A stretch of DNA of 64,000 nt from Sphingobacteriales bacterium 50-39. Lineage in GTDB: Bacteria > Bacteroidota > Bacteroidia > Chitinophagales > Chitinophagaceae. The stretch spans positions 496,001 to 560,000 of the forward strand of contig MKTZ01000001.1 of the NCBI GenBank assembly GCA_001898505.1, read 5' to 3'. The notes under the pieces are model-generated. The model was not told the origin of the DNA. It saw only the letters and a list, made by a program, of their open reading frames with translations, and did not search any database. Below are positions 37,283-56,140 of the stretch, piece by piece (the first letter of the stretch is position 1; the number at the start of each line of letters is the position of its first letter). Made by a program: the position numbers and the translations under genes.

Positions 37283-37315
37283 TTTGGATTTATTCCGAAG
37301 ATTGGATTATGTTTG
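37283..37315 (+). promoter_or_regulatory. Bacteroidota-type promoter for lacI
   Basis: TTTG (37283-37286), a 21-bp spacer and TATGTTTG (37308-37315), an exact TAnnTTTG match. The operator at 37319-37334 would cover the start of transcription, which predicts autorepression. Confidence 0.7.
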
Positions 37316-37318
37316 TTT

Positions 37319-37334
37319 TGTTAAACGATTAAGC
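37319..37334. promoter_or_regulatory. LacI-family operator, copy 1 (before lacI)
   Basis: TGTTAAACGATTAAGC: 14 of 16 positions match the reverse complement of the best copy GCTTAATCGTTTAAGC at 43582. It lies 4 bp after the -7 element of the lacI promoter. Confidence 0.7.
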
Positions 37335-37369
37335 AGTCTGTTAGGAGAAAATAAGAGTATATTTGATCG

Positions 37370-38404
37370 ATGGATAAAAAAGTGTCGCTTAAAGATATTG
37401 CGAATCATCTGGGAGTATCGACAGCTCTTGTTTCCTATGCGTTGAATCACCGTGATAAGGAGGCGAGGGTAGGGGCTGACATGGCCGAGAAGATACGGAA
37501 GGCTGCGGCGGAGCTGAACTACCAACCGAATGTCATAGCGAAGAGCTTAAAAAGCGGAAAGACGAACACGATCGGCCTGATCGTGGCGGATATCTCGAAC
37601 CCTTTTTTCTCCAATATTGCCAGGATCATCGAGGATGAGGCCAGGAAGCACGGCTATATTGTAATTTTTGGGAGCAGCGACGAAAGCGCGGAGAAATCCA
37701 AGTTGTTGATCGATGTTCTTTTAAACCGGCAGGTGGACGCATTTATTATTGCGCCGTCGGAACATACAGAGAAACAGATCCGGAACCTTCAAAAGCGAAA
37801 AGTGCCTGTGGTGTTGATCGACCGGTATTTTCCAAACATCGAAACCGACTTTATTCAAACCAATAATTTCCAGGCTGCCTACCAGGCGGTGGATCATCTG
37901 ATCAAGAATCGCCGGGAAAAAATAGGCATGGTGGCGTATGACACGGGGTTGTTACATATGCGGGAAAGGATCGAAGGGTATAAGGAAGCTTTGAAGGACA
38001 ACGGCATTCGCTTCAAAAGCGACTGGTTGAGGAAAGTCTCGTACCAGCATTTTACCAGGGATGTGGAGCTGGGCATCAAAAGCCTTATAGAGCCAACGTT
38101 ACGGGTGGACGGGTTCTTTTTTGCCACCAACACTATTGCGGTGGAGAGTCTCAAGATCATTAATCAGTCAGGGTTTAAAGTCCCGGACGACCTGGCAATC
38201 GTATCATTCGATGAAAGTATCGCCTTCGACTTCTTCTACTCCCCATTGACGTATATCCGTCAGTCCGTGGAAGAGATCGGCAAGGAAGCCGTCAAACTGG
38301 CCTTGTCAAGGATCGCGGACAAGACAAAAAAGCCAACGTCAGTAGTGATCGATGCGAGTCTTGTGGTGAGGAGCAGTTCGAAAGGGGCCGGGAAGAAAAA
38401 ATAA
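37370..38404 (+). CDS. LacI-family transcriptional regulator of the sugar locus
   Basis: 344 residues. The N-terminal helix-turn-helix and hinge are typical (VSLKDIANHLGVSTALVSYALNHRDKEARV, IRKAAAELNYQPNVIAKSLKSGKTNTIGLIVADISNPFFSNIARIIEDEA), followed by a periplasmic-binding-like sensor (PVVLIDRYFPNIETDFIQTNNFQAAYQAVDHLI, VDGFFFATNTIAVESLKII, DLAIVSFDESIAFDFFYSPLTYIRQSVEEIGKEAVKLAL). It probably binds the five related palindromes before itself, fucI, susC and the SDR, and senses a sugar or sugar derivative of this pathway. A promoter plus operator precede it, so it should repress itself. Confidence 0.93.
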   Translation: MDKKVSLKDIANHLGVSTALVSYALNHRDKEARVGADMAEKIRKAAAELNYQPNVIAKSLKSGKTNTIGLIVADISNPFFSNIARIIEDEARKHGYIVIFGSSDESAEKSKLLIDVLLNRQVDAFIIAPSEHTEKQIRNLQKRKVPVVLIDRYFPNIETDFIQTNNFQAAYQAVDHLIKNRREKIGMVAYDTGLLHMRERIEGYKEALKDNGIRFKSDWLRKVSYQHFTRDVELGIKSLIEPTLRVDGFFFATNTIAVESLKIINQSGFKVPDDLAIVSFDESIAFDFFYSPLTYIRQSVEEIGKEAVKLALSRIADKTKKPTSVVIDASLVVRSSSKGAGKKK

Positions 38405-38420
38405 ATTTTTTTATTTGATA

Positions 38421-38436
38421 GCTTAATCGTTAAAGC
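38421..38436. promoter_or_regulatory. LacI-family operator, copy 2 (before fucI)
   Basis: GCTTAATCGTTAAAGC lies 56 bp before the fucI start. The surrounding 20 bases TTGATAGCTTAATCGTTAAA are identical to copy 5 before the SDR gene. Confidence 0.75.
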
Positions 38437-38492
38437 TGCTATCATCAGCGCATTTGCGGAATAAACTTTAAAATATTAAACGGAACAGAGCA

Positions 38493-40256
38493 ATGGCAAA
38501 TTATCCCAGGATCGGTATCAGGCCGATCATCGACGGGCGCCTGGGTGGCGTACGTGAGTCCCTGGAAGAGACGACTATGAAGATGGCCAGGAATGTCGCG
38601 AGTTTGTATGAATCGACACTGCGATATCCGGATGGAACACCTGTGCAATGTGTGATTGCAGATAGTTGTATCGGCGGGGTGTATGAGGCTGCTGCCTGCA
38701 GCAGTAAGTTCGAGGCAAACAACGTCGGTGTGTCTTTGTCTGTGACGCCGTGCTGGTGTTATGGCAGCGAGACCATGGATATGCATCCATTTTTGCCCAA
38801 GGCCATCTGGGGTTTCAACGGGACGGAGCGGCCCGGAGCGGTGTATCTGGCTGCCACGCTTGCTGCGCACAACCAGATGGGATTGCCGGCATTCGGTATT
38901 TATGGCCGGGATGTACAGGACCTGGGTGATGAGGCGATACCGGAGGATGTAAGAGAGCGCTTGTTGAGTTTTGCAAAAGCTGGTCTTGCGGCGGCTATTA
39001 TGCGAGGCAAGGCGTACCTGGCCATTGGTTCGGTGTCGATGGGGATTGCCGGATCGATCGTGGTACCTGACTTCTTCCGGGAATACCTTGGCATGCGGAA
39101 CGAATATGTCGACTCTTCTGAAATATTGAGACGGATAGAAAAGAAGATCTATGACGAAGCGGAATTTTCAAAGGCGCTGGATTGGACAAAGAAACATTGC
39201 AAGGAAGGAGAAGATCTCAATGCTGTGGCAAAGCAATTCCCCCGTGCGCAGAAAGACAAGGACTGGGAGTTCGTGGTGAAGATGGCCATTATCATCCGCG
39301 ACCTTATGACGGGTAATCCCCATCTGAAAGAAAAGGGTTTTGGGGAAGAATCATATGGTCACCATGCGCTGATCTCCGGATTCCAGGGCCAGCGTCAGTG
39401 GACGGATTTTTTGCCCAATGGAGATTTTGCAGAAGCTATTTTGAATTCCTCTTTTGATTGGAACGGGATACGGGCGCCCTATCTGGTTGCTACGGAGAAT
39501 GATGCGCTCAATGCGGTGAGCATGCTCTTTGGTTATCTGCTGACCAACGCCGCGCAGATATTTGCGGATGTGCGTACTTACTGGAGCCCCGATGCTGTGC
39601 AACGTGTCGCGGGATGGCGTCCGGAGGGGGCGGCAGCGGATGGGTTTATTCACCTTATCAATTCCGGCTCGGCTGCGCTGGATGGGAGCGGGCGGCAGGA
39701 GGTGGACGGCAAGCCTGTCATGAAGCCATTCTGGGAGATCAGCAAGAAGGAAGCTGACGCGTGTCTGGAGGCGACGACCTGGTATCCCGCCAATAACGGT
39801 TATTTCAGGGGCGGGGGGTATTCTTCCAAATTCGTTACACGCGGCGGTATGCCCGTGACCATGTGCCGGCTGAACCTGGTAAAAGGCCTGGGGCCTGTGT
39901 TGCAGATCGCCGAGGGGGAGACGATCGATCTTCCCGGACGTGTCCACCAGATACTGGATGACAGAACGGATAAAGCATGGCCAACGACCTGGTTTGTCCC
40001 CAGGATCACCGGAGAAGGGGCGTTTACGGATGTATATACCGTCATGGCCCGCTGGGGGGCCAACCATGGCGCTATCACCTATGGTCATATCGGGCATGAC
40101 CTTATTTCACTGGCGGCCATACTTCGTATACCTGTGTGCATGCACAATGTGCCGGACCAGCGCGTCTTCCGTCCTTCCGCGTGGAATGCGTTCGGGTCGG
40201 ATGGAGAGTCTGCGGACTACCGGGCGTGTGAGAATTATGGGGCGCTGTATAAGTAA
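38493..40256 (+). CDS. fucI: L-fucose isomerase (also D-arabinose isomerase)
   Basis: 587 residues, collinear with E. coli FucI (591). Shared blocks include [77 protein letters not shown] and [11 protein letters not shown]. The catalytic/metal residues correspond to Glu335 (ATEND), Asp359 (FADVR) and His525 (WGANHG). The enzyme converts L-fucose to L-fuculose and, in E. coli, D-arabinose to D-ribulose with Mn2+. It is the first metabolic gene after lacI and has its own operator, with fucP and the kinase downstream. Confidence 0.96.
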
Positions 40257-40300
40257 GAGACACTATATACTAAGAAAATCTTTATAACAGGAACTTGCAT

Positions 40301-41680
40301 ATGAAAAGGAATTTCATCTCTCTGTTTCGCGCGGAGGATGGCCGCAGCTATCTGCGTCCTTTCTCGATGGTGACGAGTCTCTTTTTGCTTTGGGGGTTTG
40401 CCCACGGGTTGCTGGATGTGTTGGATAAGCATTTTCAGAATACGCTGCACATATCCAAGGCACAATCGGGCATGGTCCAGTTTGCTCTTTATATCGGCTA
40501 TCTTGTTATGGGGGGGCCTGCGGGTGGGTTTATGAAGCGGTATGGTTATAAGAAAGGTATCATTCTGGGCTTGCTTCTTTTTGCGGCCGGTGCATTTCTA
40601 TTCTATCCTGCTGCCCGGCTGGCTGCTTTCGTACCCTTTCTATTGGCGCTTTTTATTATCGCATGCGGCCTGTGCTGCCTGGAGACTGCCGCGAATCCCT
40701 ATACGACCGTGCTCGGACCGATGGATGGAGCGGCCCGACGTATCAATATTGCTCAGTCCTTTAACGGTCTCGGATGGATACTGGGGCCGTTGCTCGGAGG
40801 GCTTTTGATATTTGGCGCGGGCGGGGCCGGTGGTGTCGCCGGGACATCTGGTATAGGAGGGGGAACATCCGGCGATGCGGGAACGTTCGAATCGTTGACA
40901 ACGCCCTATATGTGGATCGGCTGTATCGTTGTCGGAGTGGCTGTTCTGTTTGCTTTTACCCGGCTGCCGGTGATCGTGGAGGAGAATAGTGAAGGTATTG
41001 CTGAAAATGCTTCGGCGCGCGAGCTTTTGAAACACCGGGGATTCGTGCTGGCGGTGATCGCACAATTCCTGTATGTGGCTGCTCAGACCGGTGTCAATTC
41101 CTTTTTTATCAACTATGTCACGGAGACTATGACGGGGGTACAGGCGGCGGTAGGGAATATGATGGCTCACCTGGGGGCTTTTGGAAGGGTGTTCATGCCA
41201 GTGAGCCCGGAGATGGCAGCCTCCTCTATTCTCGGTCTCGGAGGTATGGGCTGTTTCTGGATCGGGCGGTTGTCGGGATCGTACCTGATGAAATTTATCG
41301 CTCCTGCCCGGTTGCTGGCGACATATGCCATTGTCAATACCTTTCTCATGGTCCTGGTGATCTTCCATCTGGGGTGGGTAAGCGTGATCGCGCTGCTCCT
41401 GACCTATTTCTTTATGTCAGTCATGTTCCCCACCATTTTTGCGCTGGGTCTTAAGGGGTTGGGGCCTTTGACCAAACGGGCGGCATCCATTCTCGTAATG
41501 GCCGTGGCCGGAGGGGCTTTTTGTCCGCCGCTGATGGGACTTATAGCGGATCATTCCGGAATGCCCGTTGCCTTTATCATACCCTTGTTTTGTTTTGCTT
41601 TTATCTCATGGTTTGCCCTCCGGAAGAACAAAGGTTCTGACGCCGAAGCCGGTGTGGCGAGCGTGGTCCGATATCATTAA
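40301..41680 (+). CDS. fucP: Fucose/D-arabinose:H+ symporter, FucP-like MFS permease
   Basis: 459 residues from the ATG at 40301 (MKRNFISLFRAEDGRSYLRP). Twelve hydrophobic segments and the FucP/NagP-family features are present: LFLLWGFAHGLLDVLDKHFQ in TM1, the fifth-helix region CGLCCLETAANPYTTVLGP, and IAQSFNGLGWILGPLLGGLL. It has a glycine-rich insert (about residues 180-200, GGAGGVAGTSGIGGGTSGDAG) in a loop that E. coli FucP lacks. It should import L-fucose or D-arabinose with protons through the inner membrane. It lies 44 bp after fucI. Confidence 0.93.
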   Translation: MKRNFISLFRAEDGRSYLRPFSMVTSLFLLWGFAHGLLDVLDKHFQNTLHISKAQSGMVQFALYIGYLVMGGPAGGFMKRYGYKKGIILGLLLFAAGAFLFYPAARLAAFVPFLLALFIIACGLCCLETAANPYTTVLGPMDGAARRINIAQSFNGLGWILGPLLGGLLIFGAGGAGGVAGTSGIGGGTSGDAGTFESLTTPYMWIGCIVVGVAVLFAFTRLPVIVEENSEGIAENASARELLKHRGFVLAVIAQFLYVAAQTGVNSFFINYVTETMTGVQAAVGNMMAHLGAFGRVFMPVSPEMAASSILGLGGMGCFWIGRLSGSYLMKFIAPARLLATYAIVNTFLMVLVIFHLGWVSVIALLLTYFFMSVMFPTIFALGLKGLGPLTKRAASILVMAVAGGAFCPPLMGLIADHSGMPVAFIIPLFCFAFISWFALRKNKGSDAEAGVASVVRYH

Positions 41681-41705
41681 GTGGCCATCATTAAACAGTA
41701 CAGAT

Positions 41706-43385
41706 ATGTCCAATGATCAATATTGTATAGGCGTCGATTTCGGCACTGATTCCGTGCGGACCATTATCGTGAATGCCCGTACCGGAGAGGAGATGGCATC
41801 GGATGTTTACCATTATCCCCGCTGGCGGGATGGGCTCTATTGCAATGCGGCCCTCAACCAGTTCCGTCAGCATCCCCGGGATCATATGGAGGGGCTGCAG
41901 CAGACGATCACACGCTGTCTTAGTCTGGCAGGGCCTGCGGTAAGACGTCATGTCAAGGCTATTTCGGTGGATACGACCGGCTCGACGCCGGTGGCGGTGG
42001 ATAGAACGGGCATGCCGTTGGCGTTGCTTCCTGCCTTCGAGCATGATCCCGATGCGATGTTCGTGCTCTGGAAAGATCATACTGCCGCGGGAGAGGCGTC
42101 GGAGATCAATGCGCATGCGGGGAGGTTCGAAACCGACTATTTAAAATATGTCGGTGGCACTTATTCATCGGAATGGTTCTGGAGCAAGCTCTTGTATATA
42201 TTGAGAAAGAGCAGCCGTGTAAGAGAGGCTGCCTGTTCATGGGTGGAGCATTGCGATTGGATACCTTTTCTTCTCACCGGGGGCAGGCGGGCGGAGGATA
42301 TCAGACGAAGTGTATGTACGGCGGGGCATAAAGCGCTCTGGTCCGGGGATTGGGGCGGATTGCCGCCAGAAGATTTTTTTTCATCGCTCGATCCATTGCT
42401 GTCGCCTTTTGCGAAAGGGCTTTATGATCGCACCTACACCGCGGACCAGGCGGCGGGAAATCTTTGTCCCGAGTGGGCGGAGCTGTTGGGATTAGGGACG
42501 GATGTAGTCGTCGGTATCGGCGCGATGGATGCGCATATGGGTGCGGTCGGCGGGCAGATAGAACCCTATTATCTCAGCAAAGTGATGGGAACTTCCACCT
42601 GTGACATGCTGGTGGCGCCTGTGGGTGAGATGCAGGGAAAATATGTACGGGGTATCTGTGGTCTGGTGGATGGTTCGATCATTCCCGGTATGATAGGTAT
42701 GGAAGCCGGTCAGTCCGCCTTTGGGGATGTTTATGCGTGGTTCAGGGAGCTGCTGGCATGGCCGATAAGACATATTCTCCATGGAGGGGAGGGGGCGATC
42801 AACAGCGGGGAGAGAGCGGTTAATGAAGTGGAGATCGAAAAGATCATCCCGGAGCTGAGCAGACAGGCTATGGGACTGTCACCGGAGGGGGTAGGGGAAA
42901 TGAGTGTGGACTGGTTCAATGGCCGGCGTACGCCGGATGCCAATGCATCTGTAAAGGGGAGCATAACGGGGCTGAGCCTGGGGAGCGATGCGCCGAGGAT
43001 ATTTTACTCGCTGGTAGAGTCCACTTGTTATGGGGCGAAGGCGATCGTGGACAGGTTTATAGAGCAGGGTGTGCCGGTGAAGGGGATTATGGGGCTGGGG
43101 GGGATCCCTCAAAAATCGCCCTTTATCATGCAGATGCTGGCTGATGTGTTCGATATGCCCATCCGGATCAGCCGATCGACGCAGGCCTGTGCTACGGGTG
43201 CGGCCATGTTTGCTGCTACCGCGGCCGGGATCTATAAGAAAGTGGAGGATGCCATGCAGGTGATGGGGCATGGGTTTGAACGGGAATATATCCCTGATGG
43301 CAAAAAGGTCCCGCTATATCGGGAGCGATACAGAAGCTACCTGCGGATCGGCGAATTCCTGGAAGAGCTGGGCGGGGCCGGATAA
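41706..43385 (+). CDS. FGGY-family carbohydrate kinase, ribulokinase (AraB) type
   Basis: 559 residues from the ATG at 41706, 25 bp after fucP. It aligns along its length with AraB, not with FucK: CIGVDFGTDSVRTIIVNARTGEE, HYPRWRDGLYCNAALNQFRQHPRD, SVDTTGSTPVAVD, AMFVLWKDHTAAGEASEI, GGTYSSEWFWSKLL, DIRRSVCTAGHKALW, the base Asp275 in GAMDAHMGAVGG, KVMGTSTCDML and DWFNGRRTPDANASVKGSITGL. Ribulokinases phosphorylate 2-ketopentoses at O5, including D-ribulose. With a D-arabinose isomerase this would give D-ribulose 5-phosphate. L-fuculose is not a usual ribulokinase substrate. Confidence 0.9.
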   Translation: MSNDQYCIGVDFGTDSVRTIIVNARTGEEMASDVYHYPRWRDGLYCNAALNQFRQHPRDHMEGLQQTITRCLSLAGPAVRRHVKAISVDTTGSTPVAVDRTGMPLALLPAFEHDPDAMFVLWKDHTAAGEASEINAHAGRFETDYLKYVGGTYSSEWFWSKLLYILRKSSRVREAACSWVEHCDWIPFLLTGGRRAEDIRRSVCTAGHKALWSGDWGGLPPEDFFSSLDPLLSPFAKGLYDRTYTADQAAGNLCPEWAELLGLGTDVVVGIGAMDAHMGAVGGQIEPYYLSKVMGTSTCDMLVAPVGEMQGKYVRGICGLVDGSIIPGMIGMEAGQSAFGDVYAWFRELLAWPIRHILHGGEGAINSGERAVNEVEIEKIIPELSRQAMGLSPEGVGEMSVDWFNGRRTPDANASVKGSITGLSLGSDAPRIFYSLVESTCYGAKAIVDRFIEQGVPVKGIMGLGGIPQKSPFIMQMLADVFDMPIRISRSTQACATGAAMFAATAAGIYKKVEDAMQVMGHGFEREYIPDGKKVPLYRERYRSYLRIGEFLEELGGAG

Positions 43386-43388
43386 TAG

Positions 43389-43426
43389 TCGAGGGGCCTG
43401 CTGATACTCGAGGGGCCCGTTGATAC
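43389..43426 (+). repeat. 19-bp tandem direct repeat after the kinase gene
   Basis: TCGAGGGGCCTGCTGATAC at 43389-43407 and TCGAGGGGCCCGTTGATAC at 43408-43426 differ at two positions. They begin 4 bp after the kinase stop codon. Confidence 0.8.
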
Positions 43427-43480
43427 CCATGAAGAGGAAAAAACCTGGATGTTATTTTCGGGATATTTATTTTACTCATT

Positions 43481-43496
43481 GCTTAACCATTAAAAC
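43481..43496. promoter_or_regulatory. LacI-family operator, copy 3 (degenerate)
   Basis: GCTTAACCATTAAAAC keeps the left arm and part of the right arm. It lies 101 bp upstream of copy 4, a spacing that would allow looping, and directly precedes the short ORF at 43506. Confidence 0.5.
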
Positions 43497-43505
43497 ACTT
43501 GCCAT

Positions 43506-43562: not shown

Positions 43563-43572
43563 AATTTTTTTT
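43540..43572 (+). terminator. Possible terminator or attenuator before susC
   Basis: 7-bp GC-only stem with a 3-nt loop, then CCATAAAA and eight T (43565-43572). The T-run is offset by 8 nt, so efficiency is uncertain. It would separate the isomerase-permease-kinase transcript from susC. Confidence 0.45.
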
Positions 43573-43581
43573 GGAGAAAAC

Positions 43582-43597
43582 GCTTAATCGTTTAAGC
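43582..43597. promoter_or_regulatory. LacI-family operator, copy 4 (best copy, before susC)
   Basis: GCTTAATCGTTTAAGC: perfect 6-bp arms around TCGT, 48 bp before the susC start. This defines the consensus for the other copies. Confidence 0.8.
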
Positions 43598-43644
43598 ATC
43601 AGCTTGTTATTATTCTCTCTCTTAACCAAACCAAATGAGATTTT

Positions 43645-46600
43645 ATGAGAAATTTTTTGTTACAAAAAAAGTCAGACCGGGCATGTTTACGACTGTCTGT
43701 GCTTTTAGGGGCATTGCTACTGTTCAACATGGCTGTTCTTGCTCAGCATAAACAGATCACCGGCAAAGTAATAGATGCGTCCGGGCAGCCTATTGCAGGT
43801 ATTTCAGTGACCATCAAGGGAAGCAGTACGGGGGTTACCACCGGCAATGACGGTGTTTATAAAATTGACGCCGCCAAAGGGCAGGTATTGATATTTTCCT
43901 TTGTGGGCAAGACACCCCAGGAGATCATTGTCGGGAGCGGCAGTGTGATCAATGTATCGATGAAGGAAGGCGATGCATTCGACCTGAACCAGGTAGTAGT
44001 CACCGGGTATATGACGCAGAAAAAGGCGGATCTGACGGGAGCGATATCCGTAGTGTCGCCACAGGACCTCACGAAGAACCATGGCACGACCAATATTTTA
44101 GAGTCCTTACAGGGGGCTGTCCCCGGTATGCATATCACGACGGATGGAAGCCCGGTGGGTAATTACAGCGTACAGATACGTGGATTGACATCGGTGAACG
44201 GCGCTGCGCCCCTGATAGTGATCGACGGTGTGCCTACCTATATGAACCTCCGGGATATCAATGCGGACAATATTGCTTCTATCCAGGTATTGAAGGATGC
44301 GGCCTCGGCCAGCATCTATGGCGCCCAGGGCGCTGCCGGGGTTATCCTCATCGAAACGAAAAAAGGGCAGGCCGGGAATGCAAAGATCAGCTATAATGGG
44401 TCATTTGGCGCGTCGGCGTTCCTGAACAAGGTCAAGATGATGAATACGCAGCAGTACGGGCAGGCGTTGTGGCAGGCAGCGGTCAATGACGGAAAGGATC
44501 CCAATCTCGTCACGCAGATATATACGTACGACTGGCATACGGATGGTCAGGGAATCCCACGCCTGGATAAGGTGACGCCGCGCAAATATCTCAACGCGGA
44601 CTCCACGATGCTGTCGGCCAATACCAACTGGCTCGACGCCATTTCTCAGCTGGGTATCCAAAACAATCATCAGATCACTATCTCGGGGGGGAATGATAAA
44701 GCCACCAGCCTGTTGTCATTTAATTTTTTCCAAAATCAGGGTACGCAGATATATACGGGATACAAAAGATTCTCCCTGCGGGTGAATACCTCTTACCGGA
44801 CATTGGGGAATCATCTTACGATAGGAGAAAACCTGGAAGCCTCCCGAATGAAGATCAACGACCAGAACCAGATGCACCAGGCGCTTGTGGAGCCTCCGAT
44901 CATCCCGGTGCATACGACGAATGGAGGTTGGGGCGGATCGGCTGTGGCATTGGGAATGGACGATTACTGGAACCCTGTCCGGGAGCTCACCTTGAACAAG
45001 GACAATGGAAACAGTTACAATAAAGTATATGGGGATGCATTTGCCAGTCTGAGTTTTCTGAAGCATTTCACCCTGCGTTCGCAATTGGGTCTTATTTACA
45101 CGGATGGGTACCATCGTACTATCCAGTTTACCTTCCAGGAAGGCGGGGGGAAGTTCAATCCCATCAGCAGTGTGGATCAGTGGTATTGGACGGAGTCGAC
45201 GCTGGATCTCACCAATACGCTGTCCTATAAGCTGAGCGTGGGCAAACACAACCTGGACGCCATCGCAGGTATGGAAGCTACGAAATACCAGACGGAGACG
45301 GTGGATGCCAGCCGCCAGACTATCCAGTTCCAGAACTATGACTATGCCTATTTGGGCAATGCTACGGGAAATATAACGTTGGGGGGCAGCGGAAATAAAT
45401 ACAATGCGCTGTCGTATTTCTCGAAATTCAATTATGTCTACAATTCGAAATATCTCTTGTCGGCCTCCCTGCGTTATGACGGGTCTTCCAAGTTCGGTGT
45501 AAACAATCAATATGGTCTTTTCCCAGCGGTGTCTGCCGGCTGGAGATTGAGCGAGGAGGATTTTATGAAAAGCGTAACGGTTGTGTCGGATCTGAAGCTC
45601 CGGGCCAGCTGGGGTAAGAACGGTAATTCGAATATCCCTACGGGCGCCACGCAAACCTATTTCGTTTCCGACTATAACGGCACTTCTTATGGCATTGCGG
45701 GGAATGAGACAGGGAGTAATCCTTCCGGCTATCGGAGAGTGCAAACGGGAAATCCCAATCTGAAATGGGAGACAACGACGCAGACGGACATCGGCGTCGA
45801 CTTCGGACTACTGAACCGCAGGATCGTTGGTTCTATCGACTATTACCACAAACACACCAACGGGATGCTTTTTCAGCCTCCTTACCTTGGTACGATCGGG
45901 GAAGGCGGTTACAAATGGGTGAATGCGGCTGACATGTCGAACAATGGCATCGAGCTGGAGATCGGTTATCAAAGTGACCCGACCCGGAAATTTACCTATA
46001 GCATACGGGGTAATATAGCCCATAATAAGAACAAGATCACCAATCTGCCCAAGTCCGTGCAATATTCTTATGGCGGCAGCGCCTTGAAGGGAGATGATAT
46101 CCAGGGGCGTCCTCTCGACTCTTACTATGGATTTATTACTGACGGGATCTTTACCAGCGACGACCAGGTAAACAATTCTGCTGCTCAACCGGGCAAGGGG
46201 CTGGGCCGGATACGATATAAAGATATCTCGGGGCCGGGTGGAAAGCCTGATGGGAAGATCGATTATGACTATGACAGGACCTGGATCGGCAGCTGGGATC
46301 CCAGCATCGAATATGGGATAACCTTCGCGGCCAATTATAAGAATTTCGATTTCTCCCTATTCTGGCAGGGTGTCGCGGGCAATACGGTGTATGATGGATG
46401 GAAGAGCTACAGCGATTTTTACAATGTATGGGTCCAGAACGGCTTTAATCATCCGACACGGGTCCTGGATGCATGGTCCAAGGCCAATCCCAATTCGAAG
46501 ATACCTGCCTTGTCATTGATAAATCCCAATGACGAGCTAAGGATGTCAACCTATTTTATGGAGTCGGGCTCCTATCTGAAACTGCGTAATGTTCAGGTGG

Positions 46601-46809: not shown

Positions 46810-46843
46810 GGAACCGAGGTTTCGAAACAATCAAAACAGCGTT

Positions 46844-48639: not shown

Positions 48640-49353
48640 ATGAATCTGTATCTCCAGGGTAAGGTATTTATCGTTACAGGGGGAGCCAGCGGGATCGGCG
48701 AAAGCATTGTCCGGAAACTTGCCGACAACGGAGCGATCGCATGTATCGTCGATGGCAGCGAGAAGGCTTCGATGCGGCTATGTGATGAGCTATGCACTGG
48801 GGGGAAGCAAGCATATTTTGTCCCGACGGAACTGTCCCGGACTGAGGCATGTGCGTATGCCGTAAGCCAGGTAATGGCTGAGTACGGACAAATCGACGGG
48901 CTCGTGAACAATGCCGGACTGAACGATGGGGTAAGTCTCGAAAATGGCAATTACGAAAAATTTATAGGTTCATTGCATAGGAATGTCGTCCATTATTATA
49001 ACATGGGGAATTTTTCTTTGCCGTATTTGAAGAAATCCCGGGGCGTGATCGTCAATATCTGCTCAAGGGTTGCGGAGACGGGGCAAGGGGGCGCATCGGG
49101 ATATGCTGCGGCCAACGGTGTAAGGTTTGGTCTAACCAGCCAATGGGCATGTGAATTGTTATCCTTTGGGATTCGTGTAAATGCTGTGGTACACGAGCTG
49201 CCGGGGGCGGGGGCGATGATCCCTTTAGGTAACAGGATGACGACGCCGGATGAAATTGCCGACACGGTGCTTTTCCTTTTGTCGCGAAAGTCTGGATCCG
49301 TCAACGGCGAGTTTTTACATGTAGATGGAGGATATGTTCATTTGGACAAATAG
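48640..49353 (+). CDS. SDR-family protein related to L-fucose dehydrogenase, catalytic Lys missing
   Basis: 237 residues. The Rossmann dinucleotide motif TGGASGIG (13-20) and NNAG (90-93) are intact, as are Ser142 (NICSR) and Tyr155 (SGYAAAN). The catalytic lysine four residues after Tyr is Asn159. Close relatives (L-fucose/D-arabinose dehydrogenases of about 255 residues) carry YAASK here and have about 15-20 more residues between RVNAV and IPLGxRMTT; that substrate loop is shortened (VVHELPGAGAM). The C-terminus GEFLHVDGGYVHLDK is typical of the group. Either activity is lost, or the protein works in a changed way. It starts the second operon of the locus. Confidence 0.85.
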   Translation: MNLYLQGKVFIVTGGASGIGESIVRKLADNGAIACIVDGSEKASMRLCDELCTGGKQAYFVPTELSRTEACAYAVSQVMAEYGQIDGLVNNAGLNDGVSLENGNYEKFIGSLHRNVVHYYNMGNFSLPYLKKSRGVIVNICSRVAETGQGGASGYAAANGVRFGLTSQWACELLSFGIRVNAVVHELPGAGAMIPLGNRMTTPDEIADTVLFLLSRKSGSVNGEFLHVDGGYVHLDK

Positions 49354-49411: not shown

Positions 49412-51943
49412 ATGAAAAGGAATCAGAAAATCCGATGGGCATTTTCCGGGCTTTCTCTTTTCCTCTGCCTGGTGGCCGCGGCGCAGAAACCCAGCGGGCA
49501 TTTGTATAACGGGGTTTACAAGGGCGCTTATCTGAAGGAGGTGGCTTTTCCCATCGGAGGCATCGGGGCAGGTATGTTTTGTCTGGAGGGGACGGGCGCC
49601 ATCTCACATCTGAGTGTTCGTAACAGTCCGGATATGTTCAATGAGCCGGCGGTGTTTGCCGCTATTTCCATCAAGCAGCTGTCTAACAGTGCGCGGGTGC
49701 TGGAAGGGCCGGTGCCTGCCTGGAAAAAATTTGGACAGCATGATGCGGGGTTGGGAGCGCCGGGTATGACCTGGGGGCTGCCGCGCTTCAGAGAGGCGGA
49801 GTTCCTGGCAAGATTCCCATTTGGGGAGGTGACGTTGCGGGATAAAGAATTACCCTTGGAGGTACATATAACGGGGTGGAGTCCTTTTATACCTACGGAT
49901 GCGGATAATTCGAGCCTGCCGGTGGGGGCGTTGGAATATACTTTCCGTAATGTGTCCACGAAGACAATGGATTATGTCTTTTCCTATAATGCCAGGAATT
50001 TTATGGTCACGGGGGATGAACGTGAAGCGGCCAATCATATCAGGGCCATCCGGCAGGGATTTGTCCTTTCACAGGATGGGACAAAGGAAGCGCCTGAGAA
50101 GAAGGGGGATTTTGCCATATTTACGACAGATGCGGGGGTAGTGGTAGACCATTGCTGGTTCCGCGGCGGATGGTGGGACCCTTTTTCCATGGCCTGGAAC
50201 AATGTTGAAAAGGGGCAGGTGAAGGTGGTGGCTCCGGTGGAGAAGGATGCACCGGGGGCCTCTCTTTTTGTGCCGTTCACCCTAAAGGCGGGGGAGGAAA
50301 AGAAGATCGTGGTGCTGATGGCCTGGTATGTGCCGGATACGCATCTGCGTATAGGAGATGAACCCACAAGCCCAAAGGATAGTACGGTGCCTGATCTTTC
50401 GCGGCAGCTGCCCTCTCCCTATCACAAACCCTGGTATAGCAGCAAATTTCCCGATGTGGAGGCTGTGGCTTCATACTGGAGTGAGCATTATAACGAGCTG
50501 CGGGGGAATTCTTCTCTGTTCCGCGATGCCTTTTATAAGAGTACGCTGCCGCCGGAGGTGACGGAGGCGATAGCGGCCAATCTGACCATTCTTAAATCAC
50601 CGACCGTCATGCGGCAATACGACGGCAGATTCTGGGCCTGGGAAGGCAGCGCCGACTCCTGGGGGAGCTGTCATGGCTCGTGTACGCATGTATGGAACTA
50701 CGCACAGGCGGTATCGCATCTATTCCCTTCGCTGGAGAGAAGTCTTCGCAATACCGAGTTTGGAGAAAGTCAGAATGCGGATGGGCATCAGACCTTCCGG
50801 ACCTCACTGCCTATTCGTCCCGTGGCGCATAATTTTTATGCTGCCAGCGATGGGCAGCTGGGGGGTATCATGAAAGTCTATCGGGAATGGAGGATCAGTG
50901 GTGACAGCGCCTGGTTGAGGGGTATCTATCCCCGGGTGAAGGCGAGCATGGATTATTGTATACGGACCTGGGATCCCCGTCATGTGGGGGCGGTAGAGGA
51001 ACCGCATCACAATACCTATGATATCGAGTTTTGGGGACCGGGTGGGATGACTACGAGCTTTTATCTTGGCGCCCTGGAGTCGATGTGCGTCATGGGAAAG
51101 TGGCTCGGCGAGGATGTGAGTCTGTATGAGGCGCTGTATGAGAAGGGGCGGAAGTTTATGGAGTCCGAGCTTTTCAACGGAGAGTATTTTATCCAGAAGA
51201 TCAAGTGGACAGGGTTGAATGCGGCGGACCCGGTGGAGGCGGCTAAGAAATCTTTCGGGGGCGGCTATTCGGCGGAAGCGGTGCAATTGCTGCAGCAAGA
51301 GGGGCCTAAATATCAGTATGGGACAGGCGTGCTTTCGGACGGGGTACTGGGTTCCTGGATAGCCCGGGTCTGCGGTCTGCCTGAACCGGTGGATACGGCA
51401 AAGATCAGACAGCATCTGTTGTCGGTGTATAGATACAATCTCAAAAAGGACCTGACAGATCATAGTAATCCCCAGCGACCTGGTTATGCCATCGGTGATG
51501 AAGGCGGCCTGCTGTTGTGCAGCTGGCCAAAGGGAGGTAAGCTATCGCTGCCTTTTGTATATAGCGACGAAGTATGGACCGGTATAGAATACCAGGTGGC
51601 ATCCCATCTTATATTCGAGGGGCGGGTAAAAGAAGGGCTAGATATCGTGCGTACGTGCAGGGATAGATATGCGGGCAATGTGCGCAATCCTTTTGATGAA
51701 TATGAGTGTGGTCACTGGTATGCGCGGGCCATGTCGAGCTATGCGTTGCTGGAGGCCCTGACGGGTGTGCGCTATGATGCGGTGGAGAAGACGCTGTATG
51801 TGAACAGCAGGGTAGGGGATTTTACAACCTTTCTATCGACGGCTACGGGGTTTGCAGATGTGAGCTATCGTAGGGGCAAGGTGGATGTGAAGGTGGTGTA
51901 TGGGAAGATACCGGTGGAGAAAATCGTAATTGGAAAAAAATAA
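49412..51943 (+). CDS. Secreted glycoside hydrolase family 116
   Basis: 843 residues from the ATG at 49412 (MKRNQKIRWAFSGLSLFLCLVAAAQ, signal peptide). The N-terminal beta-sandwich domain (about 40-350) begins KEVAFPIGGIGAGMFCLEGTG, the GBA2-type signature, and the (alpha/alpha)6 catalytic domain follows (about 370-815). Likely catalytic regions are Glu411 in FWAWEGSADSWG and the acidic pair Asp537/Glu539 in HNTYDIEFWGPGG; exact assignment needs a structural alignment. Known activities include beta-glucosidase, beta-xylosidase, N-acetylglucosaminidase and exo-beta-D-arabinofuranosidase. It is probably periplasmic and in the same transcript as the GH172 gene. Confidence 0.9.
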   Translation: MKRNQKIRWAFSGLSLFLCLVAAAQKPSGHLYNGVYKGAYLKEVAFPIGGIGAGMFCLEGTGAISHLSVRNSPDMFNEPAVFAAISIKQLSNSARVLEGPVPAWKKFGQHDAGLGAPGMTWGLPRFREAEFLARFPFGEVTLRDKELPLEVHITGWSPFIPTDADNSSLPVGALEYTFRNVSTKTMDYVFSYNARNFMVTGDEREAANHIRAIRQGFVLSQDGTKEAPEKKGDFAIFTTDAGVVVDHCWFRGGWWDPFSMAWNNVEKGQVKVVAPVEKDAPGASLFVPFTLKAGEEKKIVVLMAWYVPDTHLRIGDEPTSPKDSTVPDLSRQLPSPYHKPWYSSKFPDVEAVASYWSEHYNELRGNSSLFRDAFYKSTLPPEVTEAIAANLTILKSPTVMRQYDGRFWAWEGSADSWGSCHGSCTHVWNYAQAVSHLFPSLERSLRNTEFGESQNADGHQTFRTSLPIRPVAHNFYAASDGQLGGIMKVYREWRISGDSAWLRGIYPRVKASMDYCIRTWDPRHVGAVEEPHHNTYDIEFWGPGGMTTSFYLGALESMCVMGKWLGEDVSLYEALYEKGRKFMESELFNGEYFIQKIKWTGLNAADPVEAAKKSFGGGYSAEAVQLLQQEGPKYQYGTGVLSDGVLGSWIARVCGLPEPVDTAKIRQHLLSVYRYNLKKDLTDHSNPQRPGYAIGDEGGLLLCSWPKGGKLSLPFVYSDEVWTGIEYQVASHLIFEGRVKEGLDIVRTCRDRYAGNVRNPFDEYECGHWYARAMSSYALLEALTGVRYDAVEKTLYVNSRVGDFTTFLSTATGFADVSYRRGKVDVKVVYGKIPVEKIVIGKK

Positions 51944-51966
51944 TTAACACTTAAAATCGACTTAGT

Positions 51967-53130
51967 ATGAAGAAAACGCTCTTTCTGGCCTGTCTCTTTG
52001 TGAGTGGACGGCTATTGGCGCAGCAAGCGCCGAAGTTCAACGGCATCGATGCCGGCATGAGCAACATTTATCGGCTGTCAGATGCCAAAACCAGATCCAT
52101 CAGCCCTGAAAATTTCAATGGCGCCAAGGGAGGCGGGGGCAAGGCTACTACAGGGACGGGGCAGGGGGCTTCGAGGGATCTGGGGCAAGGTTGGAAGGTG
52201 AGTCCCAGTGTGGTCATAAAGGCGCATACAACTTTTACTATTGCGGAGATAGACGGGTCAGGATCCATTCAGCATATCTGGATGACGCCAACGGGCAACT
52301 GGCGTTATTCCATCCTGCGATTTTATTGGGATGATGAGGCGACGCCTTCGGTGGAGGCGCCCGTAGGCGACTTTTTTGGAATGGGGTGGGGGAGATATTC
52401 GCCCTTGCGCAGCCTGCCGGTATGTGTCAATCCCGGCAGCGCCTTCAACTGTTACTGGCCTATGCCTTTCCGTAAGAAATGCAGGATCACGATGGAGAAC
52501 ATCGATGAGAAGGACATGGTTTTATACTACCAGGTAGATTATATACAGACGGAAGTACCCAGTGATGCGGCTTATTTTCATGCGCAATTCCGCCGGGTGA
52601 ACCCGCTGCCGTACAAGACCAACTATGTGCTGGTAGACAGCATCAAGGGCAAGGGGCAGTATGTGGGTACCTACCTGGCCTGGGGTGTGCATAACAATGG
52701 CTGGTGGGGCGAAGGGGAGATCAAGTTCTTTATGGATGGGGATACGGATTACCCCACCATTTGCGGAACGGGTACGGAGGATTATTTTTGCGGATCGTAT
52801 GATTTCGACACGCAAAAGAAGGTATCGGAAGGGGTGACGGTGAGCGACTATACGGAGTTCAATACGCCTTATTCGGGGTTGGCGCAGGTGATCAAGGGTG
52901 ACGGGCATTATGATATCGCGCAGCGGTTTGGACTTTATCGTTGGCATATAACGGACCCTGTCCGATTTGAAAAGAACCTGAAAGTGACGATACAGGCGTT
53001 GGGATGGAGAGATGGGGGAAGGTATCTGCCGTTACAAGATGATATATCTTCGACGGTGTTCTGGTATCAGGCGGAGCCGCATGGGGCGTTCCCGAAGTTG
53101 CCGTCGAAGGATCAACTGGAGGTGAATTAA
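51967..53130 (+). CDS. Secreted DUF2961 / glycoside hydrolase family 172
   Basis: 387 residues with a signal peptide (MKKTLFLACLFVSGRLLAQ). DUF2961 blocks: RSISPENFNGAKGGGG, IAEIDGSGSIQHIWMTPTG, LRFYWDDEATPSVEAPVGDFFGMGWG, NCYWPMPFRKKCRITMEN, GWWGEGEIKFFMDGDTDYPTICGTGTEDYFCGSY. The acidic residues in GEGEIKFF and GTGTEDYF (Glu271) are the expected catalytic region. Characterised GH172 enzymes act on alpha-D-fructofuranosides or alpha-D-arabinofuranosides, probably as multimers. It lies 23 bp after the GH116 gene. Confidence 0.92.
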   Translation: MKKTLFLACLFVSGRLLAQQAPKFNGIDAGMSNIYRLSDAKTRSISPENFNGAKGGGGKATTGTGQGASRDLGQGWKVSPSVVIKAHTTFTIAEIDGSGSIQHIWMTPTGNWRYSILRFYWDDEATPSVEAPVGDFFGMGWGRYSPLRSLPVCVNPGSAFNCYWPMPFRKKCRITMENIDEKDMVLYYQVDYIQTEVPSDAAYFHAQFRRVNPLPYKTNYVLVDSIKGKGQYVGTYLAWGVHNNGWWGEGEIKFFMDGDTDYPTICGTGTEDYFCGSYDFDTQKKVSEGVTVSDYTEFNTPYSGLAQVIKGDGHYDIAQRFGLYRWHITDPVRFEKNLKVTIQALGWRDGGRYLPLQDDISSTVFWYQAEPHGAFPKLPSKDQLEVN

Positions 53131-53177
53131 CCGGGTCGGGTCAATGGGGCGGGCCAGGAGAAATTTAAAAATTGCAT

Positions 53178-54407
53178 ATGAATAAAAGACTGTTAGGATC
53201 GATGATGACGGCGGTGATGCTGGCTGCTGCGTGTAATAATAATCAGCCTGTGAAGCAGGAAGAAGGACTTAAGGCAAATTCGGAAGGTACATTTGGCTAT
53301 GACCTGGACTTTCTGCGGGCACATGACAGCGTCATTGTCCTGCAAATCGATGGGGGCAAGTCGCAGGTGATCGTATCACCCAGGTACCAGGCAAAGGTCT
53401 TTACGTCCACGGCGGATGGGGAGCGGGGGAAAAGTTTTGGATGGATACATTACAAGGCTTTTACGGGACCGGTGGATGCCCATATGAATGCCTATGGCGG
53501 GGAGAACCGTCTCTGGCTGGGACCGGAGGGAGGAAAGTATTCTCTCTTTTTTCCAAAGGGGGCGGCGATGGAAATTGCGAACTGGAAGACGCCGGCGGCC
53601 TTCGATACGGAGGCATGGAGGGTGATCCGGCAGGATTCGACGTCCGTGAGCATGCAAAAGGATATGCAGCTGGTGAATTATGCGGGAGCGCCCTTGTCTC
53701 TCTCTGTTATGCGGGATGTAACTATTCTGAACAGGAGCGTTATCGACGGTATGCTGTCATCGCATGACCCGGCCTTAAAGGTAGTCGGGTATCGGACCAA
53801 CAATACGCTGACCAATACGGGCGCCAGGGGATGGACGGAGGAGACAGGTATGCCTTGTATCTGGATGCTGGATATGTTCAATCCCTCGCCGGCTACGGTG
53901 ATCGTTATACCTCATAAGAAGGGGGGAAAGGGGGAGAAGATAGCCACTACCGACTATTTTGGAGAGATACCTTCGGATAGGATCAAGATCACGGATAGCA
54001 CGCTGTATTTCAAGGCGGATGGGAAGAGCAGGGGCAAGCTGGGTATTCATCCCGCCAGTGCGCTGCCGAGGGCGGGGAGCTATGATGCGCAGAACAAGGT
54101 GCTGACCGTGACGATATTCGATGTGGACTCTACGGGCAAATACCTGAACCAGGAGTGGAAGACGACGAAACCAGCGTTTAGCGGGGATGCGGTGAATGCG
54201 TATAATGACGGTGCGTTAGCAGATGGCAGTCAGATGGGTCCTTTTTATGAAATAGAAAGCGTCTCGCCGGCGGCCTTTTTAAAACCGGGGGAATCGCTGC
54301 ATCATCAGCATATGGTATTCCATTTTACAGGGGATGAGGCGGCGCTGGACAAGGTGAGCCGTGCGTGGCTGGGGGTGTCGCTGGAGGAGATCAAAAAGGT
54401 TTTTTAG
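53178..54407 (+). CDS. DUF6786-like secreted lipoprotein
   Basis: 409 residues from the ATG at 53178 (MNKRLLGSMMTAVMLAAACNNN, lipobox Cys19). The body is beta-rich: VIVLQIDGGKSQVIVSPRYQAKVFTSTADGERGKSFGWIH, MNAYGGENRLWLGPEGGKYSLFF, RTNNTLTNTGARGWTEETGMPCIWMLDMFNPS, SQMGPFYEIESVSPAAFLKPGESLHHQHMVFHF. This pattern is that of DUF6786/DUF4380-like proteins, which resemble aldose-epimerase-type beta-sandwiches and often sit in sugar loci. The function is not established; a mutarotase or carbohydrate-binding role is conceivable. Confidence 0.75.
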   Translation: MNKRLLGSMMTAVMLAAACNNNQPVKQEEGLKANSEGTFGYDLDFLRAHDSVIVLQIDGGKSQVIVSPRYQAKVFTSTADGERGKSFGWIHYKAFTGPVDAHMNAYGGENRLWLGPEGGKYSLFFPKGAAMEIANWKTPAAFDTEAWRVIRQDSTSVSMQKDMQLVNYAGAPLSLSVMRDVTILNRSVIDGMLSSHDPALKVVGYRTNNTLTNTGARGWTEETGMPCIWMLDMFNPSPATVIVIPHKKGGKGEKIATTDYFGEIPSDRIKITDSTLYFKADGKSRGKLGIHPASALPRAGSYDAQNKVLTVTIFDVDSTGKYLNQEWKTTKPAFSGDAVNAYNDGALADGSQMGPFYEIESVSPAAFLKPGESLHHQHMVFHFTGDEAALDKVSRAWLGVSLEEIKKVF

Positions 54408-54411
54408 TATA

Positions 54412-54431
54412 TTTAGCAGACAACTGCTAAA
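54412..54431 (+). promoter_or_regulatory. Intercistronic hairpin before the esterase start
   Basis: TTTAGCAG (54412-54419), loop ACAA, CTGCTAAA (54424-54431): a perfect 8-bp stem that ends 2 bp before the ATG at 54434, with no T-run after it. It could limit translation or stabilise one half of the message. Confidence 0.5.
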
Positions 54432-54433
54432 AT

Positions 54434-56140
54434 ATGGGAAAACTTTGCTTTGCTGTCCTACTGTTTGTGTGGAGTGCCGGGAAAGCCCAGACTTTCCGGG
54501 TCAATATTTCGCCTCAGCTGCATTCGGCCGCCTGGGATGGGAGGCTTCTGTTGCTGTTATCCAATAACGATACCCAGGAGCCACGATATCAGGTAAGCGA
54601 CGCTGCGGGTACGCAGCTGGTATTTGGGGTAGATGTGGATGGATGGCAGCCGGGTGTGTCGGAACTGGTGGACATGCGTGCGTTCGGCTATCCCATCGAG
54701 CGGCTGCGGGATGTACCGGCAGGTGACTATTATGTGCAGGCGCTCCTGCACAAATATGAGACCTTTCATCTGAAGAACGGCCATGCGGTGAAGCTGCCGA
54801 TGGACAGGGGAGAAGGGCAACATTGGAATATCGCTCCCGGCAATATCTATTCCAAGCCTGTCCGGATACATTTTGATCCTGCGCGTATGGGTGAGGTGGT
54901 GTTGACGATCGACCAGGAGATCCCGCCTATTGCGGAGCCGCAGGATACCCGTTATATCAAGCATATCAAGATACAAAGCAAGCTGCTCACCGAGTTTTGG
55001 GGGCGGCCGATGTTTATCGGGGCGCATGTGCTGTTGCCGGAGGGGTTTGACGGACATCCGAATGTCAAGTACCCGCTGGCGGTTTTCCACGGTCACTTTC
55101 CGGAGGATTTCGGCGGATTCCGCATGACGCCACCCGATGAGAACCTGAAGCCCGACAGCAGCGCCCGATTTCGCATCACCGGGTATAACAAGATCGTACA
55201 ACAGGAGGCTTACGACTTTTATAAGCAATGGACAGGGCCCGGATTTCCCCGGGTGCTGGCGATAGAGATAACACATGCCAATCCTTATTATGACGACTCG
55301 TATGCCGTGAATTCGGAAAATTTAGGGCCTTATGGGGATGCGATCACCTATGAGCTGATCCCGGAGATCGAAAGGCGGTTCCGGGGCATCGGGCAGGGTT
55401 GGGCCAGATTCACCTACGGAGGGTCTACGGGGGGATGGGAAGCACTGGCCGTACAGGTGCTATATCCCGACGAATACAATGGATGTTATGCCGCCTGCCC
55501 GGACCCTGTGGATTTTCATCACTACACCACTATCGATATCTACCATGATAAAAACGCCTATTTTGTCGAAAGCGATTATAAGAGGACGCCACGTCCAGGC
55601 TACCGGGATTATCTGGGGCATGTGAGCGCCATGGTAAAGGACATGAACCAGCGGGAACTGGCGTTGGGTACCCGCAGCCGAAGCGGGGATCAGTTCGACA
55701 TTTGGGAAGCGGTCTTTTCTCCGGCAGACCAGGATGGATACCCGAAGCGCATCTTCGACAAGTATACCGGGGCTATCGACAGTTCGGTGGCGGCCTATTG
55801 GATGGAGCACTATGATCTCACCCATATCATCCAGCGGGACTGGCCGAAGATCGGGGAAAAGCTAAAGGGCAAGATCCATATCTATGTGGGAGATATGGAT
55901 AGCTATTATCTGAACAATGCGGTGTATACGGCGGAGGATGTCCTAAAGAAGCTGCAAAACCCTGTCTGTAATTGTGAAGTGGATTATGGCGACCGGGCGG
56001 AGCATTGCTGGAACGGAGATCATGCACATCCCAATTATATCAGCCGTCTGCGCTATCACCAGATGTATATAAAAAAGTGGGCGGAAGAAATGCAGCGCCG
56101 TGCTCCTAAGGGTGCGGACCTGCGCTCGTGGAGATACTAG
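54434..56140 (+). CDS. Secreted alpha/beta-hydrolase-fold esterase-like protein
   Basis: 568 residues with a signal peptide (MGKLCFAVLLFVWSAGKAQ). The N-terminal 170 residues form a beta-rich domain. A hydrolase domain follows: FIGAHVLLPEGFDGHPNVKYPLAVFHGHF, RVLAIEITHANPYYDDSYAVNSENLGPYGDAITYELIPEIERRFRG, and the nucleophile elbow YGGSTGGWEA, with a His near EHCWNGDHAHP as a possible third member. The fold resembles esterase D/feruloyl-esterase types. It is the last gene of the sugar locus and its stop overlaps the M48 gene stop (CTAG). A role in removing ester groups from the glycan is likely but unproven. Confidence 0.78.
   Translation: MGKLCFAVLLFVWSAGKAQTFRVNISPQLHSAAWDGRLLLLLSNNDTQEPRYQVSDAAGTQLVFGVDVDGWQPGVSELVDMRAFGYPIERLRDVPAGDYYVQALLHKYETFHLKNGHAVKLPMDRGEGQHWNIAPGNIYSKPVRIHFDPARMGEVVLTIDQEIPPIAEPQDTRYIKHIKIQSKLLTEFWGRPMFIGAHVLLPEGFDGHPNVKYPLAVFHGHFPEDFGGFRMTPPDENLKPDSSARFRITGYNKIVQQEAYDFYKQWTGPGFPRVLAIEITHANPYYDDSYAVNSENLGPYGDAITYELIPEIERRFRGIGQGWARFTYGGSTGGWEALAVQVLYPDEYNGCYAACPDPVDFHHYTTIDIYHDKNAYFVESDYKRTPRPGYRDYLGHVSAMVKDMNQRELALGTRSRSGDQFDIWEAVFSPADQDGYPKRIFDKYTGAIDSSVAAYWMEHYDLTHIIQRDWPKIGEKLKGKIHIYVGDMDSYYLNNAVYTAEDVLKKLQNPVCNCEVDYGDRAEHCWNGDHAHPNYISRLRYHQMYIKKWAEEMQRRAPKGADLRSWRY

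Follow-up and report, generated by a model that had tools for sequence, protein, structure and literature searches.

A probable LacI-controlled utilisation locus for D-arabinofuranose-containing glycans in a Sphingobacteriales bacterium without detectable GH183

The cell walls of mycobacteria and corynebacteria are characterised by D-arabinan. Two papers published in 2023 identified enzymes that degrade it, and in both the depolymerase belongs to glycoside hydrolase family 183 (GH183, DUF4185). The D-arabinan polysaccharide utilisation locus (PUL) of Dysgonomonas gadei, PUL42, combines GH183 endo-D-arabinanases with three GH172 enzymes (PMC10115798), and the cluster of Microbacterium arabinogalactanolyticum encodes EndoMA1/2 and ExoMA1/2 beside putative isomerase and kinase genes for making D-ribulose 5-phosphate (PMC10509167). 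Here we describe a related locus in a 64,000-nucleotide stretch (the window; contig C1, 496001-560000) of the 7.9 Mb genome of Sphingobacteriales bacterium 50-39, a member of the Chitinophagaceae. From its sequence we judge, with a probability of roughly 0.8, that it is a LacI-controlled PUL for a D-arabinofuranose (D-Araf)-containing glycan, most likely the D-arabinan oligosaccharides of actinobacterial cell walls.

Between 37319 and 56140, all on the forward strand, the locus encodes a LacI-family regulator, FucI, FucP, an AraB-type kinase, SusC, SusD, a short-chain dehydrogenase/reductase (SDR), GH116, GH172, a DUF6786 protein and a secreted alpha/beta-hydrolase-like protein (Table 1). A preliminary description drawn from the letters alone had proposed a D-arabinose locus; profile searches recovered every gene it named, in the order and on the strand it gave, and added LacI and DUF6786, which it had left out.

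The two glycosidases score as D-arabinofuranosidase types, as that description had anticipated. In PDB searches the GH172 protein matched ExoMA1 (8ic8) with 438 bits, against 148 for aFFase1, 129 for BACUNI and 123 for DG02479, and it is 57% identical to ExoMA1 across the aligned part. The GH116 protein matched ExoMA2 (8ic6) with 369 bits, against at most 51 for glucosylceramidase and beta-glucosidase entries. Placement of both proteins in family trees had been suggested as a check. In the GH172 tree (117 rows) the window protein falls with 106 relatives beside ExoMA1, separate from aFFase1 and BACUNI/DgGH172c, with ExoMA1, aFFase1 and the own paralogue (L006) on long, flagged branches. The GH116 tree (16 rows) contained no beta-glucosidase and had a contig C15 paralogue from the source genome as its sole outgroup; within it, the window protein and the GH116 of a GH183-bearing PUL from another genome, G337, share a 13-row clade (support 100/99), with ExoMA2 outside. 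Both GH172 catalytic glutamates, at the alignment columns that we take to be the catalytic pair, are present in the window protein, and each column holds Glu in 118 of 119 rows with one gap. For ExoMA2, a subfamily 4 enzyme, E431 is named as nucleophile, D557 as acid/base, and H446 and R483 as recognition residues (PMC10509167); all four are conserved, in that numbering, in the window GH116 and in every row with sequence there.

The sugar-processing genes are consistent with D-arabinose as the released sugar. FucI, encoded by a single-copy gene in the genome, and FucP both exceed an equivalog cut-off (Table 1), although FucP falls below that of a second model, PRK10133 (297 versus 427). The kinase passes one ribulokinase model and falls below a second, TIGR01234 (551 versus 583). 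Only two ribulokinases over cut-off occur in the genome, one in an araB-araD-araA operon on C15 and the distinct one in the window, which groups with four kinases adjoining fucP and fucI (L213, L216, L228, L232). FucK phosphorylates O1 of its substrate, in preparation for an aldolase, and AraB-type kinases phosphorylate O5, so FucI with an AraB-type kinase and no aldolase fits a route from D-arabinose to D-ribulose 5-phosphate. Activity of a fucose isomerase on D-arabinose has been cited for Caldicellulosiruptor (PMC3637100). The SDR is given no pathway role, because it lacks a 20-residue stretch found in all 13 aligned homologues and has Asn at what is presumably the usual catalytic Lys position; it is possibly decaying. 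The Asn is shared by all 14 aligned members of the subfamily, window copy included.

Regulation by LacI is suggested by a palindromic operator, GCTTAAWCGWTTAAGC, first noticed before lacI and susC. The window holds three sites, against 0.09 expected, and none of 100 shuffles reached three. Because two of the three served to define the pattern, related loci provide the fairer test. With at most one mismatch, 131 related loci (2.26 Mb) yielded 17 matches, one site being counted twice because L034 and L062 come from the same genome; none of 25 arm-permuted control palindromes gave any. With at most two mismatches, 28 matches were found in 2.39 Mb of other loci (that site again counted twice), 26 of which are located no more than about 210 bp upstream of lacI, GH172, GH116, DUF6786, susC or GH183; the remaining two lie before an unassigned open reading frame (ORF) near susC and within an ORF. 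In the particular case of Pedobacter yulinensis (L166; GH172 locus L115), a two-mismatch operator stands 18 bp before a full-length GH183 gene. The window LacI is 54-69% identical to the LacI of 11 related loci (L034 and L062 again representing one genome) and at most 41% identical to the remaining LacIs found, and it presumably binds this operator.

A scan of GTDB contigs returned at least 588 relatives of the GH172 protein; the best 80 are mostly from Bacteroidota, with others from Acidobacteriota, Armatimonadota, KSB1, Planctomycetota and further phyla. Two pathway types stand beside this same GH172, one with an isomerase (FucI) and one oxidative, with a UxaA-like dehydratase, an FAH-family protein and an SDR. 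We compared them across 103 loci chosen by GH172 (L062, L070 and L087 were dropped as repeats of another genome and L044 was replaced by the wider L235), a sample with many short contigs, bit thresholds of our own setting and no correction for relatedness, so that Fisher values for these counts cannot be read as probabilities. FucP-like permeases occur in 7 of 9 FucI loci, 12 of 19 oxidative loci and 2 of 75 loci with neither; the corresponding counts are 5/9, 2/19 and 5/75 for GH116, and 2/9, 0/19 and 0/75 for the AraB-type kinase. Eight oxidative loci (L046, L049, L051, L052, L071, L095, L112, L126) carry a UxaA-type dehydratase, an FAH-family protein and DUF6786 beside the GH172, and six of these eight also have a FucP-like permease or an SDR; in these loci a pathway of the D-arabinonate type seems to be linked to a D-arabinofuranosidase. 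In members of the window's genus, a CobW-family (metallochaperone-like) gene recurs near GH116 or GH172 (Pfam-checked in L037; assigned by clustering in L038, L040 and L044/L235).

The missing depolymerase sets the locus apart. The preliminary description had supposed that a GH183 gene may lie outside the window, a suggestion that the search of the whole assembly, described below, did not bear out. At a threshold of E 1e-60, the GH172 is present in 25 of the 33 genomes of the genus and in none of 25 genomes outside the genus but within its family and order; DUF4185 appears in 2 of the 33 as weak, partial matches (38.5 bits, just over the cut-off when counted with its neighbours, and 28.8 bits). 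Among 50 other genomes carrying the GH172 clade, taken from the 80 best relatives and mostly those with longer contigs, 18 have a DUF4185 match and only three of these span nearly the whole domain. Our literature search found no description of a GH183-free D-arabinan locus.

As a stand-in for PUL42, whose sequence was not compared directly, we used a GH183 PUL from the order of a Tannerellaceae metagenome-assembled genome (G105, source of L137), in which 3 of 393 genomes pass E 1e-40 for GH183. The PUL of one of them, G337, spans about 25 kb and encodes an AraB-type FGGY kinase, FucP, DUF6786, a P0009-like protein (see below), an ExoMA1-clade GH172, a further GH172-like protein, GH116, GH183, SusD, SusC, a BACUNI-like GH172 and FucI, whose gene is truncated where the stretch ends. 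This gene set anchors that of the window to a GH183-bearing PUL. The GH172 proteins of both fall in one broad 107-row clade, and the window SusC and SusD are 46% and 44% identical to their G337 counterparts. The other two GH183 loci of the order are without most of the partner genes in the stretches read.

A second locus in the source genome carries the operator as well. Outside the window, our scan covered 1.27 Mb or roughly 16% of the genome (all of C1 and parts of C4, C9 and C15, with about 4 kb overlapping the window) and found only two further sites, C1:413212 and C1:413269, 57 bp apart. They lie about 120 kb from the window locus and precede genes for SusC, SusD, the uncharacterised protein P0009 and a LacI paralogue. 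Members of the P0009 family gave weak matches to the GH127 catalytic model (9 of 9 members, best 2.5e-6), GH88 (three), GH47 (three) and GH76 (two), and a PDB profile search gave weak, short barrel matches only (GH76 mannanase, 3.5e-4; pectate lyase, 6e-3), a pattern that suggests an (alpha/alpha)-barrel enzyme. Homologues with 55-79% identity occur in four loci, each reached by a different query: L043 by GH172, L194 by DUF6786, L234 by the kinase and the G337 PUL by GH183. All four carry FucI and DUF6786. This corresponds to 4 of 14 FucI loci against 0 of 112 other fetched loci, with relatedness uncontrolled. In L043, three operators precede genes in the order SusC-SusD-P0009 homologue-GH172-LacI-DUF6786-FucI, and the SusC and SusD of L043 share 84% identity with their second-locus counterparts; given this arrangement and the shared operator, the two loci of the source genome look like parts of one regulon. 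At L234 (G007:C10, a genome of the window's genus) no operator was found with up to two mismatches in a stretch that begins inside the first SusC gene. Longer, distant relatives (913-926 residues, about 24% identity) occur near DUF6786 in L200, L201, L202 and L204, two of which also have a FucP-like permease, and by sequence comparison they would form a second branch of this uncharacterised family.

The DUF6786 protein appears to be a lipoprotein, the lipobox Cys19 being conserved in all 21 sequences of the alignment. A sequence search against the PDB gave nothing usable, and our literature search found no paper naming the family. Its AlphaFold model (predicted local distance difference test, pLDDT, 87) has aldose 1-epimerase relatives as its best PDB structural matches, at a distance (3nre: E 2.3e-11, TM-score 0.50/0.68, root-mean-square deviation 6.7, 12% identity). 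Known mutarotases use two catalytic His and a Glu base, so the single invariant His of the DUF6786 alignment (H382, alongside several invariant Glu/Asp) may count against a mutarotase function. Among the 103 GH172-chosen loci, DUF6786 is present in 8 of 9 FucI loci, 19 of 19 oxidative-pathway-like loci and 5 of 75 with neither, and its retention under either catabolic route suggests that it acts on the free sugar. Of 395 genomes sampled evenly across the phylum, 19 contained it. From 20 matches we set aside the window and L042, both with GH172, and the 18 remaining DUF6786-chosen loci have a nearby FucP-like permease in 10 cases, GH172 in five, FucI in three and GH116 in three. Seven of the 18 have none of six partner families, so DUF6786 is not confined to D-arabinose loci. 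We infer from the model and these associations that it may be a periplasmic D-arabinose mutarotase feeding the FucP-type permease. It was also considered as the missing endo-enzyme, which the mutarotase-like fold and the partner pattern of the 18 loci make less likely.

Taken together, these features suggest how the locus might work. SusC/SusD would import oligosaccharides, from which GH116 would remove terminal beta-D-Araf and GH172 alpha-D-Araf. By eye, signal-peptide-like N-termini are present in GH116 (read from 49412), GH172 and the last protein of the locus; with the DUF6786 lipobox, they place these four proteins probably on the envelope side. DUF6786 could then help convert the released sugar into the form taken up by FucP, after which FucI would convert D-arabinose to D-ribulose and the AraB-type kinase would yield D-ribulose 5-phosphate. 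Without GH183, the cell may trim chain ends and scavenge oligosaccharides released by others, or use another depolymerase, for which P0009 would be the best candidate. A wider proposal is that the P0009 family represents a new kind of glycoside hydrolase active on D-arabinan, possibly an endo-D-arabinanase independent of GH183, and that DUF6786 serves as a dedicated D-arabinose mutarotase, both within a two-locus LacI regulon with GH116, GH172, FucI, FucP and the kinase. We regard this as tentative and rather doubtful; among the 103 GH172-chosen loci, just one of the 9 with FucI and none of the 94 others has a P0009 homologue, which weakens it.

There are other possible explanations for this gene set. 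One is that FucI, FucP and the kinase handle L-fucose freed from glycans, as FucI and FucP exceed the L-fucose equivalog cut-offs of TIGR01089 and TIGR00885. Indeed, Campylobacter jejuni uses one oxidative route for both L-fucose and D-arabinose, so homology of the isomerase, permease or dehydrogenase cannot separate the two sugars (PMC6946681). The preliminary description had doubted fucose for want of a fuculose-phosphate aldolase (FucA), a FucK-type kinase and a fucosidase, and our searches agree on each. No FucA over cut-off was found in the genome, the best match reaching 81.9 bits against 400, and the three sub-cut-off matches fall at two places, AraD of the C15 operon and a 487-residue frame on C4. 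In a FucK search confined to the locus, the kinase scores 30 bits (cut-off 471) against 665 for ribulokinase, and the 20 Pfam-scanned proteins in and around the locus, the part of the genome searched for this function, include no fucosidase. L-fucose as the principal substrate was set aside on the aldolase and the kinase; with both glycosidases scoring as D-arabinofuranosidases as well, we consider a fucose locus highly improbable. A locus for a fructan-like glycan, with the GH172 acting on another furanoside such as alpha-D-fructofuranosides, is harder still to credit. The GH172 family does include the alpha-D-fructofuranosidase aFFase1, and Asn253 of ExoMA1, said to exclude fructofuranose, is replaced in the window protein; the replacement is Asp, however, and not the Gly stated for aFFase1 (PMC10509167), which is a gap there in our alignment, and the score, clade, GH116 and FucI context all differ. 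The D-arabinose assignment, which the preliminary description had preferred to fucose, is thus strongly supported by these comparisons. It is also possible, though in our view unlikely, that the sugar is D-arabinose and the substrate no polymer, with the enzymes attacking only the ends of short D-Araf decorations (pilin glycans, for example) or of oligosaccharides released by other organisms. The lack of GH183 in the genome and the sparse DUF4185 matches among GH172-clade genomes fit this, as does the cleavage of D-Araf pilin oligosaccharides by GH172 enzymes (PMC10115798); the SusC/SusD similarity to the G337 PUL and the large secreted P0009, common to that PUL and the second operator-marked SusCD locus, argue against it. 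The natural polymer would most likely be actinobacterial arabinan.

Several observations nonetheless weigh against a D-arabinan PUL as we propose it. The GH183/DUF4185 model (PF13810) gave 0 matches in the whole assembly and near-full-length matches elsewhere, and ExoMA1 is inactive on intact lipoarabinomannan, requiring endo-released oligosaccharides (PMC10509167). The four GH116 residues are identical in the distant C15 paralogue (28% identity, otherwise different context), so they agree with a D-arabinofuranosidase and do not decide specificity. At the Asn253 position the window GH172 has Asp; this column (119 rows) holds D in 77, N in 29, a gap in six, G in three, Y in three and A in one. 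Asn is kept in Chitinophaga loci that carry genes of the oxidative type (L095, L112, L126) as well as in the G337 PUL, and Asp is commonest in the window's nearer relatives, so the change is not obviously tied to a different pathway. The window-type kinase group has support of 91/93, below the strong mark, with long branches flagged, and the G337 PUL kinase lies outside it as sister to another G337 kinase, which probably reflects recruitment of kinases more than once. In 75 of the 103 GH172 loci neither fucI nor oxidative-type genes occur in the stretch covered, many stretches being short, and the FAH and UxaA relatives of the sister loci fall under NCBIfam family cut-offs. Finally, the operator is not exclusive to the window LacI, since this operator also accompanies a LacI paralogue.

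Table 1. Features of the window locus (window positions) and of the second operator-marked locus (contig C1 positions).
Feature	Position	Strand	Evidence or note
LacI-type operator 1	37319-37334	+	2 mismatches to GCTTAAWCGWTTAAGC; upstream of lacI
LacI-family regulator	37370-38404	+	profile matches; absent from the preliminary gene list
LacI-type operator 2	38421-38436	+	1 mismatch; upstream of fucI
FucI, inferred D-arabinose isomerase	38493-40256	+	TIGR01089, 1034 bits (cut-off 850)
FucP-type sugar:H+ symporter	40295-41680; ATG 40301	+	TIGR00885, 339 bits (cut-off 280)
AraB-type FGGY kinase, inferred D-ribulokinase	41706-43385	+	PRK04123 ribulokinase, 665 bits (cut-off 428)
LacI-type operator 3	43582-43597	+	0 mismatches; upstream of susC
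SusC, TonB-dependent transporter	43645-46809	+	profile match
SusD	46796-48583	+	profile match
SDR, L-fucose/D-arabinose dehydrogenase-like	48640-49353	+	L-fucose dehydrogenase model, 287 bits (under cut-off 300)
GH116, predicted ExoMA2-like exo-beta-D-arabinofuranosidase	49412-51943	+	PDB search, tree
GH172/DUF2961, predicted ExoMA1-clade exo-alpha-D-arabinofuranosidase	51967-53130	+	PDB search, alignment, tree
DUF6786 lipoprotein, galactose-mutarotase-like fold	53178-54407 (ORF from 53172)	+	Pfam, 537 bits
Secreted alpha/beta-hydrolase-like protein, possible deacylase	54434-56140	+	GxSxG region matching PDB esterase 8z91
LacI paralogue	C1:405319-406407	-	63% identity to window LacI
P0009, 710-residue secreted protein	C1:406383-408515	-	no Pfam cut-off passed
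Second-locus SusD	C1:408542-409984	-	beside SusC
Second-locus SusC	C1:410001-413087	-	beside operators C1:413212/413269

The likely true starts of FucP, the kinase and GH116 (40301, 41706 and 49412) were read from the sequence. The last protein of the locus, called an esterase in the preliminary description, matched no Pfam family; a four-sequence profile reached PDB esterase 8z91 (E 0.0011, residues 285-359, spanning the GxSxG motif), so the call holds as far as a likely alpha/beta-hydrolase and nothing more specific. Its structure model was unusable (pLDDT 29). A promoter and terminator scan gave counts scarcely above shuffles (27 versus 22.8 and 17 versus 16.5). Elsewhere in the window (12680-20127) there is a second SusD gene (15628-16992) beside a SusC-sized ORF (17029-20127); genes for MBG-domain and OmpA-domain proteins follow downstream on the minus strand. 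A scan of 10 large ORFs from the first 33 kb, a set to which that SusC-sized ORF did not belong, yielded no glycosidase.

The locus suggests a GH183-free D-arabinan route in Chitinophagaceae-like Bacteroidota, names two uncharacterised families (DUF6786 and P0009) as testable, and offers in the operator a means to map the regulon. Given how widespread the GH172 clade is, D-arabinofuranosides may be a commoner food than assumed. Compared with PUL42 (PMC10115798), the window locus has, by sequence, the GH172 exo-alpha type, in one copy, and a FucI-type isomerase in the locus, without GH183. With M. arabinogalactanolyticum (PMC10509167) it shares an ExoMA1-like GH172, an ExoMA2-like GH116 with the four named residues and the putative isomerase and kinase route. 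The exo-enzymes of that organism lack a signal sequence and, as proposed for them, act intracellularly after GH183 action and ABC import, whereas those of the window have apparent signal peptides and the transporters are SusC/D and FucP. The fuc cluster of C. jejuni, with its SDR, dehydratase and FucP-like permease (PMC6946681), resembles the oxidative sister loci; the window locus differs from it in its isomerase-kinase set, its glycosidases and an SDR without the 20-residue stretch. The window locus is different from the described systems, both in having no GH183 found and in implicating two uncharacterised families.

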